Assembly: GCA_026389895.1 (NCBI GenBank)
Contig: JAPLGZ010000243.1
Location: 1 to 53,092, forward strand
Length of the DNA: 53,092 nucleotides
Reading direction: 5' to 3'
From: Chloroflexota bacterium
GTDB lineage: Bacteria; Chloroflexota; Anaerolineae; Caldilineales; Caldilineaceae
Both the position numbers and the translations under genes were made by a program. Every line of letters begins with the position of its first letter. The first letter of the stretch is position 1. The notes under the pieces were generated by a model. It saw only the letters and a list, made by a program, of their open reading frames with translations. It was not told the DNA's origin and did not search any database. This document shows positions 11,827 to 52,783 of this stretch, piece by piece.

Positions 11827-14800
11827 TTATCTGGTCACCAGCGGCAAGAAGAGGTGCTGACGAGCGGAGGGCTCCTGGCCATTTTCGATATCGGTCGGCT
11901 GGCTGACAAAGCCAGCATCCCATGTAAGGTCGCGCTGACCAGGGTTGAGTGTGATCAAGACTGTCTGCCCAGTAATCGGATTGGCATCACTGTTATGCTC
12001 GCCGGCATGGTTGATGGTGAAACCAGCATAACCTGGTGCTAACACGAATGTGACCTGATAATGGCCGGGTGCTAAGTTCTCAAAGAGATAAGAGCCGTCA
12101 GCCGCGGTGAGCGTGTGCGAAATTTCTTGGCCACTCGCATCGAGCAGCACCGCCATTACCCCATTAAGCAAATTTTCATTCGTCGCCCACTCCCCATCTG
12201 CGTGGTCAACCAAACCATCATCCCAAACATGACCGCCCAGCGCCGCGGTCAGTGCCGGGGTGAGCCCTGCATCCCAAGTGAGATCATCCTCACCGCTGCT
12301 CAATGTTGTCACAACCGTGCGCCCGGTGAGCTGATTCGCATCCGAATCTTTGGCGAGGTTGCCCCCTTGGTTGGCTCTTGTAAACGTATAGCCGGCAGGT
12401 TGCGTAAAGACGACATAATAGTCGCCTGGCCGTAAGTTGGAAAAGTGGTAAAACCCGGTAGCATCCGTTACTGTGGTCGCTACCTGATTGGCTTGCCCAT
12501 CAAACAGGGTCACTAGTACATTGGCTACTGGTATTTCACCGTTATCCTGCACGCCATCGCTATTCTGGTCGATCCAGACATAGTCACCCAGGCTGGCGGG
12601 CTTAAAGAGCCCTAGATCAAGGGTCAGATCTTGGCTGCCAGCGGTCAGAGGACCAGTGGGCGCCGTTTGGCCGGTCTGCTGATCGGCGTCCGAATCCAGG
12701 GTTCGATCCCCACCCGCATTTTTCGTCGTGACGCCATAACCAGCCGGTGCGGTTGTTAGATCAAAGACGACATAGTAGTTGCCTGGTGGCAAATTGTCAA
12801 AGAGATAAAAGCCATTCGGTGCGGTCGTTGTCACCAGATTCATGGCGGCGCCGGTGCTCTGGAAAAGGGTGGCTTTCACGCCACCAATCCCTGGTTCACC
12901 CGCATCTTGGAGGCCGTTGGCGTTTAGATCCTCCCAGACAAAGTCGCCGACGCGTACAATATCACTGACTGGGTTTTGAGGTGTATAGATGCCCATGTCT
13001 AAGGTCAAATTGCTACCATTTTGCAGCAAGCCGGTGGCCGTACTTTTGCCCGTAATCGGATCGGCATCGGAATTGCTGTCCGCAGGCACGCCGTTCGCCT
13101 GTTGTCGTGTGACCCCATAGCCAGTTGGCAATGTTTTCAGATCAAAGACCACATAATAATCACCTGCCGGTAAATTGCTAAAGAGGTATTTACCACCGCT
13201 ATCCGTAATTTGTGGCGTGATAGGCTGATTGCTGGCGTCAAGCGTAACGGGTAGGTCTGTGGCCGTGTTGAAGAGCGTTACCTTGATGCCTGGCACACCG
13301 GGTTCATTACCGGCGGAGCCAGCATCTTGTTGCCCGTCATGATTCGCATCGATCCAGACATAATCACCAACCTGCACCGTTCCATAGAAGCCAAAATCAA
13401 CCGTCAGATCCCCGTTGCGATCATTCCCGTCGATGGCAATATCAGGCTCAGCATCTACCGCCAGATTGATCACTGGGCTGGTGACTGGGTTGCCAGAACC
13501 GGTCTGAACGCCATTGTCGTCATTATCCGTGCCGTCGTCATTTCCATCAGTCACGGCGCTGCTCTGTGGATAGAGCGTTGGCGGTGTAGGAATGTAGACA
13601 AAATAATTGCCGGGCGTCAAGTTGATAAAATTGTACAAGCCACCATTACTTGTGGTTGTGGTGCGCAGTGGTGGGCTGGTCAGCGGATTAGCGCCTGCAT
13701 TGAATAGCTGCAATTCGATGCCATCAATGCCATTCTCGTTGGCATCTTTATGCCCATCATGATTGGCGTCATGCCAGACAAGGTTGCCCAAGTTCACCAA
13801 AGGCAACGTAATAAAGCCAAAATCATAGGTGTGATTATTGTAACCTGCACCGCTTAAGTCAGTATAAGGCACGGTGTAAACCACATCAACACCATTCACA
13901 ACCCCGTCTGAATCGTTGAGATCGGAACCACTGGGCGAAGGCGTCGCGTCATTGGCTTCGGTCAATTGCAACCCCGCTAATGGGAGCTGTTGACCAATGC
14001 CCGTCGCGTTGGGGATGCGGATCGTATATTCAGAACTGCCATTTGGAACCCCTGTGCCATAAACGATCCCTTTGGCATTATTCAGATTGACGTTGCTATT
14101 GTTGAAGTAATATTGACCATCTTGGCTGGTGATCGTCGTGCCTACTTTGACGTTATTCCGATATAGATCAACCGTAACGCCGCCCAGACCGGCTTCACCA
14201 GGATCCTGAAGGCCATTGCTATTGCCATCTTGCCAAACTCGGTTGCCAATTTCAATTGGGGCGGCGTCGCATAGCAATTCTATATCGCCCATACCCATCG
14301 CCTTGACATGCGTCTCGGCGCTATGATAGACCGTATAGCCCCGATTGCGGGCGCCACTATTATTATTGTGCCAGATCACGCCAGCATCATCATTGTTTTG
14401 AAATGGTTCAATCGCTGTTGTTGCCACTTCCCCGCTGCCAGGTAAGAAGGCTAGACCACCTTGGCTGTTTTCGCCGGTCTGGGTATAGCCAGTTGGGGCG
14501 TCATCTTCAAAATAGAACTCGCCATTGCCTGGTCCTTGATGATTGTTACTTTTGTTGGCGCACCCTGCTGCGCCAGGCTGCACAAAGGCGCCGTTCACAT
14601 TACAAACACGTAGGATGTCGCCGGCATTGAGCACATGTACGACATGCGAAACCGGGTCACTGGCATTCGCTGGCGGTTGTGGTTCACCACCCTGTAAAAA
14701 CCAACGGTCGCCAAACCCGAGAATCAACGATCCGTCCACGTCGAACTCGATATCAGAGAGGATTGGCTGTGGCCAGGCCAAGTTGTCACCACCTTGACCG

Positions 14801-16176
14801 GGAAATACGGTGGGCCAGGCAGAGAGCCAGGGATTCCACTGGCAACCATAGGCACCTGGCTGCCCCTGTTGCCATGCACAACCCTTGGCATAATCGAGGT
14901 CAAGCTTCGTGACGGTCGAGAAACCTGCGGCTGGCTGATTAGGATCAAAGGAGAGCACATAGGCATCCAGGTCGGCAGCGGTGCCATTGTGTTCTGCCGA
15001 GCAGACACCGCCTACATAAACAAGCCCATTGTGCACTTTGAGACCCCAAGGGCGAAACTCACCGTTGGTGCAGTTCGGCGCGCCATGATTGATCAGTGGG
15101 TAGGCCGTAACATCACTCGTAGTCGGTGTATGCAGTGGCGCGCCAACCTGAATGGCAAGCAAGGTGCGCTGATTCAGGTTCACCGCCCATAGGGTTTGCT
15201 CGTCTTCCGATAGCTCAATATCACCAAAGGCAACTTTGCCCACCGCATCAAACGACGCCGGGTCAATGCTTTTGCATTCATTGCCTTCTTGTTGGCAACC
15301 GGGCAAACCACTGTGCGGATCGCTGCCAGTATTGATGCCCGCTACTGTATTTAGATTCGCAAAATTGGTGACAGCTGGGGTGACGCCAGCCATATCGACG
15401 GCATAAATGCCACCACTGCCCAGTGGACCGTAGCCGCTGTGCCGGCGTTGCACCGCCGCGACAAACAACGTTTTGGAGGTGCGTTGATAGGCCAGCCCCC
15501 AAGTCGCGGCCCCGATCGTTGCGGCATCGGCCAACGCTGTGCTTTGGTTGGTTTCGCCGCTGGCATGATAAGGAAAGTAGGAGAGGGCCTCGGCCGGACC
15601 CGTCGCAATGAATCCCGGCGGTGGCGCCTTTAACGGATCGCCGGCGATAAAACAGTTGGCCGCTATGTTCGGGTTGTTCTGGCAATATTCGGCTGGATTG
15701 TTGATGCCCAGATTTATATTATTGGCGCTGTTGCCGGCTACAAATTGTACGGTTGTGCCCGATTGCGATCCGGCTGGCCCTGGTTTGAGATTGGCTGGTA
15801 GATTCGTAAATTCAATGCGATAGGGGCCTATACCCGTTGCGCTCAGGGTGTAGATTCCATTCGCGGCGCTGCTTGTGCTGCCCTGCTTGACGCCTGTTGC
15901 ATCGTAGGCGGTAATAATCACACCACCAACGCCTGGCTCCGTAGCGTTATCGAAGTTGCCATTGGCATTCAGGTCGCGAAAGACCGTTCCTGTGATCACA
16001 CCTGCGGCAAAAATGTTTTGCGCAGGCATGATGATACCAGTGGCCAGGCTGAGCAAGAGGAGGACGCGTAGCCCAATCTTACCCGCCTGCCAATACCTTG
16101 ATCCTATAGAAATTTTTAATGGCCTTACGGCCGCTATTCTTACTTGTATGCTTTTGTCGCGCTTGAATAATCCCAT
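11827..16176 (-). CDS. Secreted SdrD B-like repeat protein with propeller-like region
   Basis: A 1449-residue exported protein. Residues 34-58 form a signal segment ending in AAG after ALAT-type hydrophobic residues. An SdrD/Cna-B-like domain begins near 59 (GTVFRDLNANGNFDN). Residues about 165-630 look like a beta-propeller (repeated blocks such as WGLAYQRTSKTLFVAAVQ and LWAVNLNQRTLLAIQ). Six more SdrD B-like domains follow at about 642, 795, 934, 1075, 1197 and 1312, each opening like VGDYVWIDANHDGQQD with calcium-type Asp/Asn loops and a Y/F-LF-NL-PG-YYVVF core. The chain ends HLFLPLVTR with no membrane helix or LPxTG. Known relatives are surface proteins; the binding partner is unknown. 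Confidence 0.88.
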   Translation of the reverse strand: MGLFKRDKSIQVRIAAVRPLKISIGSRYWQAGKIGLRVLLLLSLATGIIMPAQNIFAAGVITGTVFRDLNANGNFDNATEPGVGGVIITAYDATGVKQGSTSSAANGIYTLSATGIGPYRIEFTNLPANLKPGPAGSQSGTTVQFVAGNSANNINLGINNPAEYCQNNPNIAANCFIAGDPLKAPPPGFIATGPAEALSYFPYHASGETNQSTALADAATIGAATWGLAYQRTSKTLFVAAVQRRHSGYGPLGSGGIYAVDMAGVTPAVTNFANLNTVAGINTGSDPHSGLPGCQQEGNECKSIDPASFDAVGKVAFGDIELSEDEQTLWAVNLNQRTLLAIQVGAPLHTPTTSDVTAYPLINHGAPNCTNGEFRPWGLKVHNGLVYVGGVCSAEHNGTAADLDAYVLSFDPNQPAAGFSTVTKLDLDYAKGCAWQQGQPGAYGCQWNPWLSAWPTVFPGQGGDNLAWPQPILSDIEFDVDGSLILGFGDRWFLQGGEPQPPANASDPVSHVVHVLNAGDILRVCNVNGAFVQPGAAGCANKSNNHQGPGNGEFYFEDDAPTGYTQTGENSQGGLAFLPGSGEVATTAIEPFQNNDDAGVIWHNNNSGARNRGYTVYHSAETHVKAMGMGDIELLCDAAPIEIGNRVWQDGNSNGLQDPGEAGLGGVTVDLYRNNVKVGTTITSQDGQYYFNNSNVNLNNAKGIVYGTGVPNGSSEYTIRIPNATGIGQQLPLAGLQLTEANDATPSPSGSDLNDSDGVVNGVDVVYTVPYTDLSGAGYNNHTYDFGFITLPLVNLGNLVWHDANHDGHKDANENGIDGIELQLFNAGANPLTSPPLRTTTTSNGGLYNFINLTPGNYFVYIPTPPTLYPQSSAVTDGNDDGTDNDDNGVQTGSGNPVTSPVINLAVDAEPDIAIDGNDRNGDLTVDFGFYGTVQVGDYVWIDANHDGQQDAGSAGNEPGVPGIKVTLFNTATDLPVTLDASNQPITPQITDSGGKYLFSNLPAGDYYVVFDLKTLPTGYGVTRQQANGVPADSNSDADPITGKSTATGLLQNGSNLTLDMGIYTPQNPVSDIVRVGDFVWEDLNANGLQDAGEPGIGGVKATLFQSTGAAMNLVTTTAPNGFYLFDNLPPGNYYVVFDLTTAPAGYGVTTKNAGGDRTLDSDADQQTGQTAPTGPLTAGSQDLTLDLGLFKPASLGDYVWIDQNSDGVQDNGEIPVANVLVTLFDGQANQVATTVTDATGFYHFSNLRPGDYYVVFTQPAGYTFTRANQGGNLAKDSDANQLTGRTVVTTLSSGEDDLTWDAGLTPALTAALGGHVWDDGLVDHADGEWATNENLLNGVMAVLLDASGQEISHTLTAADGSYLFENLAPGHYQVTFVLAPGYAGFTINHAGEHNSDANPITGQTVLITLNPGQRDLTWDAGFVSQPTDIENGQEPSARQHLFLPLVTR

Positions 16177-16245
16177 AAAACGGTTCCCTTATCTTAGTAA
16201 TAGTAGTAAGTAGTAAATAAACGGATTAGATAGCTGGGTAAAGAG

Positions 16246-16269
16246 CTTATACTTGACATTCAGTATAAG
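16246..16269. promoter_or_regulatory. Palindrome upstream of the SdrD-repeat gene
   Basis: The 8-bp perfect arms CTTATACT and AGTATAAG with an 8-base spacer lie 70 bases upstream of the minus-strand start at 16176. Size and place fit a dimeric repressor operator, but no regulator is known and chance cannot be excluded. Confidence 0.3.
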
Positions 16270-16470
16270 ATGGATATCAAATAGAAGGCGTTACAAATCG
16301 CTGACCCTTTTTTTATGAATGCAATGGCCCTCAGGAAAAAGCTGAATTAATTTAATACCAGGTGTCAGTTATCTCTCTGCGCACTCTGTGTAACGCCTGT
16401 CTTGCGTAACATGCCTGACCAAGTAATTATCCGTAACTCAGTGTGTGATGAAATTGGCCAAATGAAACAG

Positions 16471-16499
16471 TTGACAAGGCTCCCTACCTTCGTTATACT
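16471..16499 (+). promoter_or_regulatory. Sigma70-type promoter of the ilvB leader
   Basis: TTGACA (perfect -35) at 16471-16476, a 17-base spacer and TATACT (-10, 5 of 6) at 16494-16499. The predicted transcript start near 16506 gives 70 bases before the leader-peptide ATG and about 245 bases to the attenuator terminator. It is the strongest promoter in the window by consensus match. Confidence 0.8.
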
Positions 16500-16575
16500 A
16501 TTCAAAGTGATAGTTTGAACATCAAAATCCTGCGACGAACGCTGATATTTGAAAGCTAGGGCATACCTAACCTTT

Positions 16576-16686
16576 ATGAAACCTTGGGCTTTGCTTTCTG
16601 ACGTGCTTGTAGTAGTCCGCATCCTTCGCCAGCTTCTGGTCGTAATTCTTATTGACCGGAAGCCGTTAGTGGTTGGAGAAGCGTAG
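16576..16686 (+). CDS. ilv leader peptide, 36 codons
   Basis: ATG to TAG, 36 residues, of which 19 are Leu, Val or Ile. The densest runs are residues 10-17 (VLVVVRIL) and 20-26 (LLVVILI), and a third cluster LVV at 31-33 lies just before the stop. This is the design of the enterobacterial ilv leader peptides, in which ribosome stalling at branched-chain codons reads charged tRNA levels. It ends 38 bases before an intrinsic terminator and overlaps an alternative pairing segment. A ribosome site is weak (AGGG about 16 bases upstream). No similarity search was possible; the call rests on composition, place and the downstream RNA structure. Confidence 0.78.
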   Translation: MKPWALLSDVLVVVRILRQLLVVILIDRKPLVVGEA

Positions 16687-16735
16687 CCCGTAGGTTGTAT
16701 TCACTACGCTAGGTCACTGTAGACTCTTCCCAACC
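16671..16735 (+). promoter_or_regulatory. Candidate antiterminator pairing of the ilv attenuator
   Basis: GGTTGGAGAAG at 16671-16681 (leader codons 32-36) can pair with CTTCCCAACC at 16726-16735 in ten base pairs with one bulged A. This pairing uses the 5' arm and loop of the terminator and so excludes it. A competing hairpin AGCGTAG (16680-16686) with CTACGCT (16704-16710) is also possible, perhaps as a pause site. A ribosome stalled in codons 10-26 leaves the segment free; a ribosome at the stop codon covers it. This mechanism is inferred. Confidence 0.65.
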
Positions 16736-16750
16736 GGGAAGAGTTTTTTT
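16724..16750 (+). terminator. Intrinsic terminator of the ilv attenuator
   Basis: CTCTTCCC (16724-16731), the tetraloop AACC and GGGAAGAG (16736-16743) form a perfect 8-bp stem followed by seven T. It lies between the promoter and ilvB with no full-length gene ahead of it, which is what makes it an attenuator and not an ordinary gene-end terminator. Confidence 0.85.
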
Positions 16751-16968
16751 GTTTTTGGCTATTTTTGATGGAGATTAAACCTCATTTATTGATTGAAAAA
16801 TAAAGTACGAAGTGACAAATCGGGTAGCCGTGTTTGACAGGAAGCCGTGTTTGATAGGCAGTCGTCTTTACCAAAGGATAGACATCGTAGGCAATGAACC
16901 ACGTAACTGATAAAAACATGTAAGCGATGAACACGTAAGTAGGGAATGAAAATACTAAGGAGAAACTT

Positions 16969-18777
<1,809 letters not shown>

Positions 18778-18795
18778 AATTCATTGACGATTTTT

Positions 18796-18900
18796 GATTT
18801 ACGATTTACGAAGGAGTGGTGAGCGGAGCCTGTGATTTCTTCGCCCCTCTTGGAGAGCAGAATGATGATGTCCGGCCCTTCACTTCGTAAATCGTAAATC
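18796..18900. repeat. Palindromic word repeat between ilvB and ilvN
   Basis: GATTTACGATTTACGAAG (18796-18813) and its exact complement (18883-18900) flank a 69-base middle. Both flanks continue with the same words (GACGATTTTTGATT on the left, CGTCAATCGTCAATC on the right). The ilvN ribosome site GGAGG follows at once. Built from 7-base units differing by single bases, it looks like a dispersed intergenic repeat. Confidence 0.7.
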
Positions 18901-18934
18901 GTCAATCGTCAATCAAAAATGGAGGAATAGAACC

Positions 18935-19507
18935 ATGAAACATACACTCGTCGCGTGGATGCGCGACAAACCCGGTGTGCTGAACCGGGTGTCTGGTTTG
19001 CTGCGCAGGCGTAACTTTAATATTGACAGCTTACAGGTGGGGCACAGTGAGCAGTTGGGCATCAGCCGCATGACTTTTGTGGTTGATGGCGATGAACACA
19101 TGGTCGATCAGGTGATTAAGCAAATGCGCAAAGTGATTGACGTGACGCGCATTGATAATATCAGCGATCGACTAAGTGTTGTGCGCGAATTGGCGTTGGT
19201 GCGGGTGCGCACCACCCCCGAGACGCGCTCCGAGATCATCCAGATCGTCGAAATTTACCGCGGTGAAGTGGTTGACGTGGCGCTCGATTCGATGGTGGTG
19301 CAGATTATCGGTTCGGAAGATCGTGTGGATTCGCTCATTAGCTTGATGGAGAACTTTGGTGTGCTGGAAATGGTGCGCACCGGCCGCGTGGCCATGTTGC
19401 GCGGCAGTTCCGAAAGGCGTAAACGCGGGAGCTCGGTCTGGAGTGCGCGTTCCAACGGCATCGAAGCGGCCACCGCGACCGATCTGTTTTCAAGAAGTGG
19501 TGTGTAA
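18935..19507 (+). CDS. ilvN: Acetolactate synthase, small regulatory subunit
   Basis: Regulatory subunit that activates IlvB and confers feedback inhibition by valine. 190 residues. An N-terminal ACT domain ([32 protein letters not shown]) is followed by the ALS small-subunit C-terminal domain ([19 protein letters not shown]). The last 25 residues (after [10 protein letters not shown]) are longer than usual and basic. Start at ATG behind GGAGG. Often named ilvH or ilvN; the choice of symbol is conventional. Confidence 0.95.
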
Positions 19508-19517
19508 GTGGCCCAAA

Positions 19518-19574
19518 GCATGAGGTAAAAAACAGGGCATGTGTACGCAACATGCCCTGTTTTTTACCTCATGC
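19518..19574 (+). terminator. 25-bp hairpin after ilvN
   Basis: The arms 19518-19542 and 19550-19574 are perfectly complementary over 25 bp around the loop GTACGCA. The descending arm contains six T (CCTGTTTTTTACC). It lies 11 bases after the ilvN stop and is likely a terminator or strong RNA boundary, which would mean ilvC has its own promoter in the following 200 bases. Confidence 0.7.
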
Positions 19575-19719: not shown

Positions 19720-21252
<1,533 letters not shown>

Positions 21253-21388: not shown

Positions 21389-21451
21389 ACTCGCTTTTCT
21401 CTATCTGCTCCGTGACACAAATTTTGCTACGTAATTGGAAGGAGCTTGATA

Positions 21452-23215
21452 ATGGAACCTACGAATGGTGTGTCGCACGCCACAGAAGCTGTAGCCGGTG
21501 AAACACCCGCCATTGATATAACCCAATTTGCGATTGCCGATATGCGGGCCTATGCGCGTGAAATTGCACACGGCAATACTGTCCTTATCTTTGACACTAC
21601 GCTGCGCGACGGCGAACAGAGCCCCGGCGCCACGCTCAATACCCAAGAAAAATTGGATATTGCGCAACAATTGGCCCGTTTAGGTGTAGATATCATGGAA
21701 GCCGGTTTCCCGGCGGCTAGCCCTGGCGACTTAGACGCCGTCAAGCAGGTGGCCGAAACCGTGGGCCGTGCGCCGCGGCTAGATAAAAATGGGCAGTGGA
21801 GTGCGCCGCCCGTGATTGCGGGCTTAGCGCGTGCCAACAAAAACGATATCGATAAAGCTTGGGAAGCCGTCCAAGGCGCTGTACGTCCCCGTATCCACAC
21901 CTTCTTGGCCACCAGCGATATTCACATGCAGTATAAATTGCGCATGAGCCGCGACGATGTGTTAGAGACGGTTGGCGATATGGTGCAATATGCGGTCAGC
22001 CTTTGCCCGAATGTCGAGTTCAGCCCTGAAGATGCCGGACGCAGTGATCCCGAATTTTTGGTCAAGGTATTGGAAGTGGCCATTCAAGCAGGGGCGACAA
22101 CCTTAAATATCCCAGATACCGTTGGTTATATCACACCCGAAGAATATGGTCATTTGATCAAGCACCTGCGCGAGAATGTGCCGGGTGGGCGCGACGTCGT
22201 CTTTAGCTTGCATTGTCACAATGATTTGGGGATGGCGACAGCCAATACGTTGGCCGGTGTCCAAGCAGGTGCGCGCCAGATGGAAGTGACCATCAACGGG
22301 ATCGGTGAACGCGCTGGCAATACGAGCTTGGAAGAGACGGTGATGGCGCTGCACACGCGCAAGCCGGTCTTTTGGATCGAGACCAATATTGTCACGACAG
22401 AAATTCATCGGGCCAGCGACATGGTCAGCCGTTATACGGGCATGGTCATTCAGCCCAATAAAGCGATTGTGGGCGCCAATGCTTTTGCGCATGAGGCTGG
22501 CATTCACCAAGATGGAATGTTGAAGAATAAGCGCACCTATGAGATCATGGATGCGGCGACGATTGGCTTGAATCAGAGCCGGCTGGTTTTGGGCAAGCAC
22601 AGTGGTCGCAATGCCTTGAAGACCAAGCTCGATGAGATGGGTTATCACCTGGGTAAAGAGGAACTGGGCGAGGTCTTTAAGCGTTTTAAGGATGTTGCCG
22701 ACAAGAAAAAGACCGTTACCGACGCCGATTTAGAAGCCTTGGTCGGTGATGAAATTTATCAACCAGTCGAAGCTTGGGAATTGTTACATCTGCAAGTACA
22801 ATGTGGCAACAAACTCATTCCAACCGCGGTGGTTACCCTACGGAATAACCAAACTGGCAGCGAAATTACAGAATCCAGCATTGGCACCGGCCCTGTAGAT
22901 GCCCTCTATAAGGCGATCGACAAAATTATCCACGTGGAAAATAACCTGGTCGAATTTTTAGTGCAGGCGATCACCGAAGGCATTGACGCCAATGGCGATG
23001 TGACGGTGCGGATTGAAGTGCCCCAAAGCCGGGGTTATAGTAAGACGGCGCAAGGTCGTGATCGGCGTCGCCTTTTTAGTGGCCGCGGTGTGGATACAGA
23101 TATTGTCTTCGCCAGCGCCAAAGCTTACATGCAGGCCATCAATAAATTGTTGAGCGCCATGGACGCCGAAAGCTCGGCCGTGAACATGGCGGCCGATGCC
23201 CCCTTGCCCGTTTGA
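21452..23215 (+). CDS. leuA: 2-isopropylmalate synthase
   Basis: Condenses acetyl-CoA with 2-oxoisovalerate, the first committed step to leucine. 587 residues from ATG 21452, chosen because AAGGAG lies 7 bases upstream (a TTG at 21446 would be too close). Landmarks are [21 protein letters not shown]-type metal site [48 protein letters not shown], and a C-terminal LeuA dimer/allosteric domain (from about 400) ending [17 protein letters not shown]. The insertion around residue 115 (a short charged loop before [13 protein letters not shown]) is like the cyanobacterial/plant form. Confidence 0.96.
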
Positions 23216-50695: not shown

Positions 50696-52783
50696 CTATC
50701 TATGAATCAGTGGCAAAAAGATAAACGCATTATCGATTGCATCTACTTCCGGTGGCTGATCCCCGATCGGTGGCGTCAGTGTTTCCACGGGGGTCAGTGT
50801 TTCCATGGGGGTCAGTGTTTCCATCGGCGTCGGTGTTGCGGTTGGCGTTTCCGTTGATATAGGCGTGCTGGTCGGCGTTACAGTAGGTTGACAGGCTGGC
50901 GAATCGATAAAAACTGTGTTTGAGTAGCGTGTGTCATGGCCTTGTTTGTCAATCGGCATGACGCGAAAGTAGCAGAATTTGTCGATCGTCGTATCGAGGA
51001 TGGTCTGGGTCTCAAACCCCGTTTTGAAGGTCGTATCGATCAAGGTCGCTGGTTCGGCAGTCGTGCCGCCATAGACCCGATAGCCAAGAAGTTCTGTGGC
51101 GCCGTTCCAACTGTAATAGAGGGTGGGTGTTGTATCTGTAATGGCAACGAGTGTCGGCTCTGTGGTTGGATAGCCTTGCCAGTTAAACCGGAAGGCGCGA
51201 TAGTTGATATTCGGGGATGATAAAGCAAGCTCAAAGCGCTTCGTTCCATCTAGACCAAACTCTGTAATTGCTGGCAGGCTTGACAAGCCCCACCCAACCA
51301 AAACATTATTGTTCGACAACTTCTGATTGCTCCCCATCGCTAGACCAGAGGTATCTGGGGTGTTGCGATATTCATGCACCAACGTGGCGATCTTCTTCTT
51401 TTCATCCAATCGATATTCTACAGCCCGTGAATAGCTGGGGGTGGCCAAATTACCATTGTCATAGAGTGTTATATTGCCATTTGGTAAGCGGCGGATGTCA
51501 TGTTGATGAGAAAAAGGACGATTATCACCCACAAAGGTAAATTGATTGTGTTTGCCACCTAAACGCCAGACAATGGCGCCGGTCTGACGATTGATCTTCG
51601 TAATCTCATTCAGGTGACGGCTAGAAAGCAAGAGATTTCCGTCTGTATCAAGCTCAATGGCGTTGCCATGTACGTAGTCAACCGGTTCGGTTTGCAAGTA
51701 AATATCCGTGGTATCCGTAATTTGAAAATGATCCCAACTGCGCCATTCAAAGACTACGTTTTTGGTGGCGTCTAGTTCTTGAACGATCAAACCCATGACG
51801 TTCGCTGTCATGCGACCATTTGGAACCACTCCATCGGTATTGCTGATCACTTGGGTATCGTAACTCATTAAGAGTGCATGACCGTTGGCCAAAATTTGTA
51901 AGTCATGATTATCTGTAGAGTAGCCGTGCCCGGCTTGGAACGTGTCCACCTCTGTATAAGTGTTATCCAATGCATGAAATACACCCGTTCCCTTATCCCA
52001 ATAAGTAAGCAAACCGTTGGATTGGCGTTTAAAGTCATCTGCCCAAACACAGGGAGGCAACGCCCGATAGAAGGCTGGTTCGCCCGCATTATCCAGCATG
52101 AGCAAATAGGCTCCGTGAGAGCAAAATGTAGATTGGAAATTGCTCAGAAAAAGATAACCGTTGTCAACCCCATTGGCTGGTGTCGTAACCGTGATCTGCG
52201 GGAAATCCGTTGGCAATGTATGGTAAGTTTTAGTAGAAACTACCGCCGCTTTCACATCTGTCAAAGTATCTGCGGGCGCAGACAAAAATCTAGAAGGCTG
52301 CGTTTGTCTTTCATTACCTAGGGAAACCGCAAGATTACTTGCTTTGAAGATGGCCGGATCCGCAAGCGCAGTTGTAAAGCGAAACGCTACATCACCCGCG
52401 GCGTCCCTGCCCCAATTGACGCTAACGTTGACACTCTCATGCAATGCGAATGGCTGATCTGGGATAAAGATGATCGTTTGTTGATCATCGGCCAGCACGA
52501 TATGGCCAGCGTGCTGGCCTGATTGCGCACCAGAGACGGTAAAATGCGCACTAGCCTGAATGCTGTCGTCGAGCTTGACTCCATAACGGATGGCAATGGT
52601 CGTCTGTGGCGAGACAAATTGCGCATCTGGCTGAGGTTGAAGATAGATCGGCGCCGTGGGCAATTCACTCATTGCGAAAACCGTTGGCCTATTGCTATGC
52701 TCGGCATGAATAGGTAGCACATAGAGCAAGATGGGCACTAAAAGAGCCGACGTTAACGTAAGCCACAGGGTTCGTCGTAGCAT
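50696..52783 (-). CDS. Secreted arylsulfotransferase-like protein with FLPLIHR tail
   Basis: 695 residues from ATG 52783, which follows GGAGG by 7 bases (a GTG at 52933 would add 50 unlikely residues). Signal segment LTLTSALLVPILLYVLPIHA is followed by an Ig-like domain (about residues 40-150) and then an ASST-type propeller with NHDLQILANGHALLMSYDT, DYVHGNAIELDTDGNLLLSS, INRQTGAIVWRLGGKHNQF and FSHQHDIRRLPNGNITLYDN. A fibronectin-like segment and a Pro/Thr linker follow, then FIFLPLIHR at the C-terminus. Function as sulfotransferase is inferred from the family; the active-site His pair seems present but was not checked. Confidence 0.85.
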   Translation of the reverse strand: MLRRTLWLTLTSALLVPILLYVLPIHAEHSNRPTVFAMSELPTAPIYLQPQPDAQFVSPQTTIAIRYGVKLDDSIQASAHFTVSGAQSGQHAGHIVLADDQQTIIFIPDQPFALHESVNVSVNWGRDAAGDVAFRFTTALADPAIFKASNLAVSLGNERQTQPSRFLSAPADTLTDVKAAVVSTKTYHTLPTDFPQITVTTPANGVDNGYLFLSNFQSTFCSHGAYLLMLDNAGEPAFYRALPPCVWADDFKRQSNGLLTYWDKGTGVFHALDNTYTEVDTFQAGHGYSTDNHDLQILANGHALLMSYDTQVISNTDGVVPNGRMTANVMGLIVQELDATKNVVFEWRSWDHFQITDTTDIYLQTEPVDYVHGNAIELDTDGNLLLSSRHLNEITKINRQTGAIVWRLGGKHNQFTFVGDNRPFSHQHDIRRLPNGNITLYDNGNLATPSYSRAVEYRLDEKKKIATLVHEYRNTPDTSGLAMGSNQKLSNNNVLVGWGLSSLPAITEFGLDGTKRFELALSSPNINYRAFRFNWQGYPTTEPTLVAITDTTPTLYYSWNGATELLGYRVYGGTTAEPATLIDTTFKTGFETQTILDTTIDKFCYFRVMPIDKQGHDTRYSNTVFIDSPACQPTVTPTSTPISTETPTATPTPMETLTPMETLTPVETLTPPIGDQPPEVDAIDNAFIFLPLIHR
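50771..50824 (-). repeat. Three 18-bp tandem repeats in the arylsulfotransferase-like gene
   Basis: Units GGGGGTCAGTGTTTCCAT and near-copies begin at 50771, 50789 and 50807. On the minus strand they encode METLTP, METLTP and VETLTP in the Pro/Thr linker. The number of units could vary between strains without shifting the frame. Confidence 0.85.

Follow-up and report, generated by a model that had tools for sequence, protein, structure and literature searches.

In the ilvBN, ilvGMEDA and leu attenuators of enterobacteria, a leader reading frame rich in branched-chain codons, a competing antiterminator and an intrinsic terminator stand before the ilv genes. Enterobacterial attenuator operons are listed in PMC1183508, and a theory ties the sensitivity of an attenuator to the use of control codons seldom found in bulk mRNA and to the selective charging of isoacceptors (PMC1183508). 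In Corynebacterium the terminator, antiterminator and anti-antiterminator hairpins of the ilvBNC attenuator (ilvB-II motif) have been tested by mutation (PMC10272879, PMC11857589), and CUU and GUA have been named as the control codons of Corynebacterium glutamicum ilvBNC (PMC11857589). The ilvB-OMG motif (41 sequences from various phyla) and the Leptospira ilvB motif (7 sequences of Leptospira) were reinterpreted as attenuators with upstream open reading frames rich in isoleucine, leucine and valine (I/L/V) codons (PMC10272879). Leader-peptide attenuation of ilvB has thus been established or proposed for Proteobacteria and Actinobacteria and, by motif reinterpretation, for Leptospira and others (PMC1183508, PMC1262725, PMC10272879, PMC11857589). 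Mutants of the Streptomyces ilvB leader gave no support for codon-dependent attenuation, as cited in PMC1262725, so that a similar-looking leader need not act in this way.

The element described here lies ahead of ilvB in a genome of the Caldilineaceae (Chloroflexota). The kind of system is known; new are the lineage, the near-absence of Shine-Dalgarno sequences, the position of the antiterminator strand inside the reading frame, and the sharply localised codon choice. Common to it and the enterobacterial ilvBN, ilvGMEDA and leu attenuators are the branched-chain-rich leader, the competition of an antiterminator with an intrinsic terminator, and the ilv genes downstream. In contrast to these, the Chloroflexota leaders almost never have a Shine-Dalgarno sequence and show no detectable Rfam similarity, and their antiterminator strand usually lies in the last codons and pairs with the loop and the 5' arm of the terminator. 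The Corynebacterium ilvBNC leader, compared by description, likewise puts I/L/V codons before ilvB, and its CUU and GUA are the codons enriched in Chloroflexota, but its frame has 15-17 codons instead of mostly 21-46, and its antiterminator is formed between a portion of the P1 loop and the shoulder of the lower terminator stem, whereas the Chloroflexota strand takes the 5' arm and loop; the two belong to different phyla. The ilvB-OMG and Leptospira motifs, likened by description only, have in common the I/L/V-rich frame before ilvB. The Mycobacterium and Streptomyces ilvB leaders share I/L/V runs and terminators before the gene, with the frame overlapping the terminator there, unlike in Chloroflexota (PMC1262725). 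A literature search for such attenuators, leader peptides or RNA motifs in Chloroflexota found no description; its coverage was incomplete, and an earlier prediction is possible.

Elements of the leader region

The window, that is the whole stretch of 53,092 nucleotides which was analysed, is part of an 8.77-Mb draft genome, and the features named below lie on its plus strand unless stated otherwise. A sigma-70-type promoter (16471-16499) consists of TTGACA at 16471-16476, a 17-base spacer and TATACT at 16494-16499, agrees with the consensus in 11 of 12 positions, and is the sole promoter-like site within 16180-17000 when both strands are scanned; the interval from the terminator to ilvB, scanned for a second such site, contained none. 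The transcript is predicted to start near 16506. Promoter-like sites scoring 9-11 of 12 are also found upstream of most leaders of the relatives. A TTGTGCA motif, possibly a regulator site, recurs near the promoter in L011, L012, L015-L017, L022, L023, L025, L027-L029, L032 and L033, and was not found in the window by the same scan.

The leader reading frame (16576-16686) runs from the ATG at 16576 to the TAG at 16684-16686 and encodes the 36-residue peptide MKPWALLSDVLVVVRILRQLLVVILIDRKPLVVGEA with 19 leucine, valine or isoleucine residues; it has no Shine-Dalgarno sequence. Its control codons, VLVVVRILRQLLVVIL(I), form a putative ribosome stall zone at 16606-16653. Hairpin A lies inside the frame (16632-16663) and pairs GCTTCTGGTC at 16632-16641 with GACCGGAAGC at 16654-16663; it is probably a pause hairpin or the upper part of a protector. 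The antiterminator strand, here called B, is GGTTGGAGAAG at 16671-16681 and, in this genome, encodes the terminal VVGEA of the leader. It pairs over 10 bp, as GGTTGG-(A)-GAAG with one A bulged, with CTTCCCAACC at 16726-16735, the 5' arm and loop of an intrinsic terminator (16721-16753) which has an 11-bp stem at 16721-16746, an AACC loop and seven T. A small GGTC/GACY hairpin (16712-16725) adjoins the terminator arm and may occupy the base of the terminator stem, thereby extending the antiterminator.

Most of these parts had been proposed in an initial annotation of the region. The promoter TTGACA-17-TATACT, the 36-codon frame with 19 Leu/Val/Ile and the 10-bp pairing of 16671-16681 with 16726-16735 were all located as it had described them, and the gene starting at 16969, which it had called ilvB, is an acetolactate synthase by Pfam. 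The terminator, which it had placed 38 bases past the stop codon, has the stem and the seven T; the distance is 34 bases, a different base having been taken as the opener of the stem.

The single sequence by itself is moderate evidence. In I/L/V content the leader ranks second among the 584 small frames of the window, and the energy of the pairing between B and the terminator is equalled by 7% of shuffles, which is not significant, so that the decision rests on the relatives. The small frame richest in I/L/V, at 50805-50891, is a low-complexity repeat of alternating Gly, Val and Ser (MGVSVSIGVGVAVGVSVDIG...) and no leader.

Conservation, covariation and distribution

Sixty related genomes were queried with the ilvB protein, and the DNA ahead of the gene was read in the orientation of ilvB. 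This yielded 43 genomes with an I/L/V-rich leader ahead of ilvB. A small Leu/Val/Ile-rich frame is present in every genome of the same family with a readable ilvB upstream region, and eight other families of the class have it as well; the frames typically end in ...VGE or similar about 90-310 nt before ilvB, with the weakest case in genus g16. Relatives which keep ilvB and have lost the frame and the stem would have spoken against the initial annotation. The opposite was found, since the readable genomes of the family and many other families keep the frame, the terminator and the competing strand. A strand near the stop codon which is complementary to the 5' arm and loop of the terminator occurs throughout the 43-genome set, and the terminator with its T-rich tail in nearly all genomes; in G023 the terminator, AGACCCTTCCCC..GGGGTGGGGTCT-T7, was misplaced by the automatic terminator scan and is plain on reading the sequence.

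Covariation was counted on an alignment (A1) of 34 leaders and compared with 500 shuffles. The antiterminator has 95.9% of cells paired and three pairs changed on both sides, a number reached by 4 of the 500 shuffles, and the terminator has 94.1% of cells paired and four pairs with two-sided changes, reached by none. For hairpin A, 49 cells changed on both sides, again with 0/500 shuffles. The 4-bp GGTC/GACC hairpin is paired in 95.6% of cells yet almost invariant, leaving covariation nothing to test. For the antiterminator, the terminator and hairpin A, sliding the partner strand by 1-3 columns lowers the percentage of paired cells in every case. In distant families strand B and its partner are swapped together as a whole, to CCGTTTGGAAGG/CCTTCCAAACGG, CCTGGTTTGGGAGG/CCTCCTGAACCAGG, CCCGTTTAGGATGGC/GCCCTCCTAAACGGG and GGGACGGC/GCCGTCCC.

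Strand B lies mostly within the frame and starts 10-34 nt before the stop codon. The exception is genus g9, where the stop codon comes earlier and B, still kept, begins 5 nt after it. B is therefore conserved as RNA and not as peptide, and the VGE residues elsewhere are a by-product of the conserved strand. Its position mainly inside the frame also means that B would be masked while the ribosome reads through it, not only when the ribosome stands at the stop codon.

The exact motif GGTTGGNGAAG..GGTC..GACYCTTCC was found in 31 stretches among 84,980 genomes, 30 of them in records titled Caldilineaceae (or Litorilinea), Anaerolineae or Chloroflexota/Chloroflexi, which bears out the initial annotation in calling the genome Chloroflexota-like. 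The remaining match, in an actinomycetote (L151), has no terminator or leader in the surrounding bases and was judged to be due to chance. Among 298 genomes of the class, a covariance model (R1) built from the 34 leaders matches 143, which represent at least 38 families; some genuine leaders (G046, G051) escape it. Nearly all of 40 matches examined are I/L/V-rich leaders located before ilvB or before a gene of 550-590 residues which is followed by ilvB; Pfam confirmed that one of the genes of this size is ilvD. The element thus precedes ilvB or ilvD-ilvB and goes with the first gene of the operon. One match, L108, is no leader. Single leaders stand before an aconitase-family gene which reads like leuC and before a LeuA-like gene (L103, L106).

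When 400 genomes of the phylum were scanned, 48 had a match at E <= 0.01. The checked matches outside the class include leaders before ilvB or ilvD-like genes, three of them on large chromosomes of 5,258,541, 5,801,598 and 6,346,587 bases. Weak matches with E of 1e-3 to 1e-2 in G571, G395 and G354:C64 are no leaders, and matches weaker than 1e-3 include false ones. Textbook branched-chain attenuation would in this way extend to Chloroflexota as a conserved element of at least 38 families of one class and of other classes. Whether all these leaders form one ancient ilv attenuator family across Chloroflexota, with frames lacking Shine-Dalgarno sequences and with control codons which are mainly CUU/CUC, GUA/GUC and AUU/AUC, CUU and GUA being those of Corynebacterium, is a question on which we consider the arguments evenly balanced. 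If it is true, the family would be a natural test case for the theory that attenuators choose codons read by starvation-sensitive tRNA isoacceptors.

Some genomes carry two copies of the leader. In G191 there are two paralogues of ilvB, and each is preceded by a related leader of its own (L101, L102). In L092 (G042:C88, 270-440) a second copy of leader and terminator stands before a rubrerythrin-family gene which begins with residues similar to those at the start of ilvD; it seems that an attenuator was duplicated here and taken over by another gene. Second I/L/V-rich leaders occur also in two genomes of one genus, L094 (G083) and L096 (G048); the protein downstream of L096 has no Pfam match.

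Codon choice, ribosome position and start of the leader

The frame containing the leader (frame 0) is open in all 43 genomes, and the other two frames in 6 and 8. In 30 leaders which were compared, I/L/V make up 48% of the frame as opposed to 25% in ilvB, and in the 43 genomes they account for 74% of codons -20 to -8 before the antiterminator strand. The zone homologous to 16606-16653 is I/L/V-rich, and a bias towards CUU and GUA is confined to it. Leucine codons in this control stretch are CUU in 58%, CUC in 26% and CUG in 9%, and valine codons are GUA in 60% and GUG in 1%, whereas ilvB of the same genomes has CUG in 52%, CUU in 6%, GUG in 55% and GUA in 5%. Past the control stretch CUU drops to 20% and GUA to 6%, and CUG returns to 31% and GUG to 16%; GTT is high there because strand B itself spells GTT. 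Leucine favours U at the third position and valine favours A, so that the bias cannot be put down to base composition alone; hairpin A accounts for at most a part of it. Being about ten-fold over ilvB, the CUU/GUA bias makes a long-standing prediction on control codons testable by comparative genomics. A run of six histidine codons, the sign of a his leader, was not found in the genome.

The local codon bias implies codon-specific reading. This bears on the alternative which survives best, namely that the leader controls translation or Rho-dependent termination, or that it works without codon-specific stalling as has been described for Streptomyces ilvB. The look-alike Streptomyces leader was unresponsive to codon changes, as cited in PMC1262725, and the Chloroflexota leader is without a Shine-Dalgarno sequence. 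Against this stand, besides the codon bias, an intrinsic terminator with a T run which is conserved and covarying, and a strand B whose partner in the window is the terminator and not the ribosome site of ilvB, which lies over 200 nt further downstream. We consider this alternative unlikely.

The codons also speak to a less probable reading, in which the frame encodes a translated hydrophobic mini-protein and the terminator is a constitutive partial terminator with no ribosome sensing. The encoded peptides are indeed short and strongly hydrophobic, but a test of substitutions by codon position, made to detect purifying selection on the peptide, showed no synonymous excess, and in close genomes of one genus the codon changes are mostly nonsynonymous while the I/L/V content is retained. 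As far as these comparisons reach, the composition of the peptide is conserved and its sequence as such is not. The choice among synonymous codons is extreme and local, and the stop codon can shift upstream of B with B not being lost. The mini-protein is thus a very improbable explanation.

For attenuation, a stalled ribosome has to leave B free, and this was modelled in the 43 genomes by folding in two ways: in model 1 the RNA behind the ribosome may pair, and in model 2 only the RNA downstream folds. In model 2 the mean pairing probability of B with the terminator arm is 0.87-0.99 as long as the A site is placed 20 to 3 codons ahead of B, 0.21 at codon -1, and about 0 from B onward, and the I/L/V codons fall within the stretch where the stalled ribosome leaves B free. 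In model 1, B can re-pair after passage of the ribosome in a few genomes whose B is distant from the stop codon (G004, G039, G040, G047, G052), and in the present genome (G000) late stalls in the control zone leave B occupied by the 5' part of the frame. In these models the position of the ribosome decides which structure forms, less clearly so if RNA behind the ribosome may pair. With the ribosome absent, B is hidden in 28 of the 43 genomes, among them the present one, and wholly or partly free in the other 15, so that an untranslated leader is likely to terminate in many, not all, genomes. A protector (1:2) pairing is seen in many genomes and is weak, with a mean z of -1.0.

A Shine-Dalgarno-like 4-mer is absent at the chosen start in 40 of the 43 leader frames. 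A lenient test allowing any in-frame start, and hence taking in upstream starts such as the in-frame ATG further up in genus g9, was positive in 6/43 leaders as compared with 49/50 ilvB genes. This rarity makes translation of the leader less certain than in enterobacteria, whereas the conservation of the open frame in all 43 genomes argues for it. It raises the question how translation of the leader begins. Selection may have acted against a purine-rich ribosome site resembling GGAGG, since such a site would imitate B by pairing with the CCUUCCC terminator arm.

Proposed mechanism and extent of control

Taken together, the unit is in all likelihood a ribosome-mediated transcription attenuator controlling ilvB and at least ilvN, and Chloroflexota very probably sense amino acid shortage by the progress of the ribosome through such leaders. 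From the parts, conservation, compensatory pairing, codon bias and switch thermodynamics, which were computed, we infer transcription, leader translation, stalling and a role of hairpin A as follows. RNA polymerase would start near 16506 and transcribe the leader frame with a ribosome following. When charged tRNA for Leu, Val or Ile runs low, the ribosome would stall on the control codons at about 16606-16653, upstream of B; B (16671-16681) could then pair with the emerging 5' arm and loop of the terminator (16726-16735), no terminator would form and ilvB would be transcribed. With good supply the ribosome would read through B to the stop codon and mask it, the terminator would form and transcription would end near 16753. 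Hairpin A is likely to make the polymerase pause and, together with the 5' part of the frame, probably helps to sequester B when the ribosome is absent. The initial annotation had assumed the same logic, with stalling freeing and reading through covering the antiterminator; conservation and the folding model support it, with the refinement that B lies mostly inside the frame.

A riboswitch binding a metabolite or ppGpp could also operate the terminator, with the frame being incidental. Since ppGpp riboswitches govern ilvB in some bacteria (PMC10272879), and hairpin A and the GGTC element are conserved, this has to be considered, but hairpin A lies within the reading frame, and the open frame and the codon bias are found throughout. 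At gathering thresholds the Rfam scan gave 0 matches anywhere in the window, and a permissive scan gave matches at chance level, the best being Phe_leader with 19.6 bits where the gathering threshold is 55. We rate the riboswitch slightly lower still than the mini-protein. That the terminator merely ends a gene located 400 nt upstream and that the frame is due to chance has a negligible probability and is already refuted by conservation, as the gene at 11827-16176 points the other way, so that 16721-16753 is not its terminator, and the unit as a whole accompanies ilvB/ilvD throughout the phylum.

The controlled gene ilvB (16969-18777; large subunit of acetolactate synthase, Pfam TPP_enzyme N/M/C) is followed by ilvN (18935-19507; small subunit), ilvC (19780-21252; ketol-acid reductoisomerase, which may be a separate transcript) and a leuA-like gene (21446-23215; 2-isopropylmalate synthase), all assigned by Pfam. 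A perfect 24-bp inverted repeat, GCATGAGGTAAAAAACAGGGCATG / CATGCCCTGTTTTTTACCTCATGC, with a six-T stretch in its 3' arm, occupies 19518-19574 in the gap between ilvN and ilvC. It looks like a two-way terminator which may split ilvBN from ilvC-leuA; as it may end the ilvBN transcript, ilvC and leuA may fall outside the control by the attenuator.

The gap between ilvB and ilvN (18778-18934) consists mostly of an inverted repeat built on the heptamer ATTTACG / CGTAAAT, which recalls dispersed heptamer repeats. On the other side of the leader, the gene at 11827-16176 on the minus strand encodes a protein of 1449 residues with repeated Gly/Asn/Asp-rich domains, which, as judged by eye, may be secreted and belong to the SdrD B-like surface proteins.
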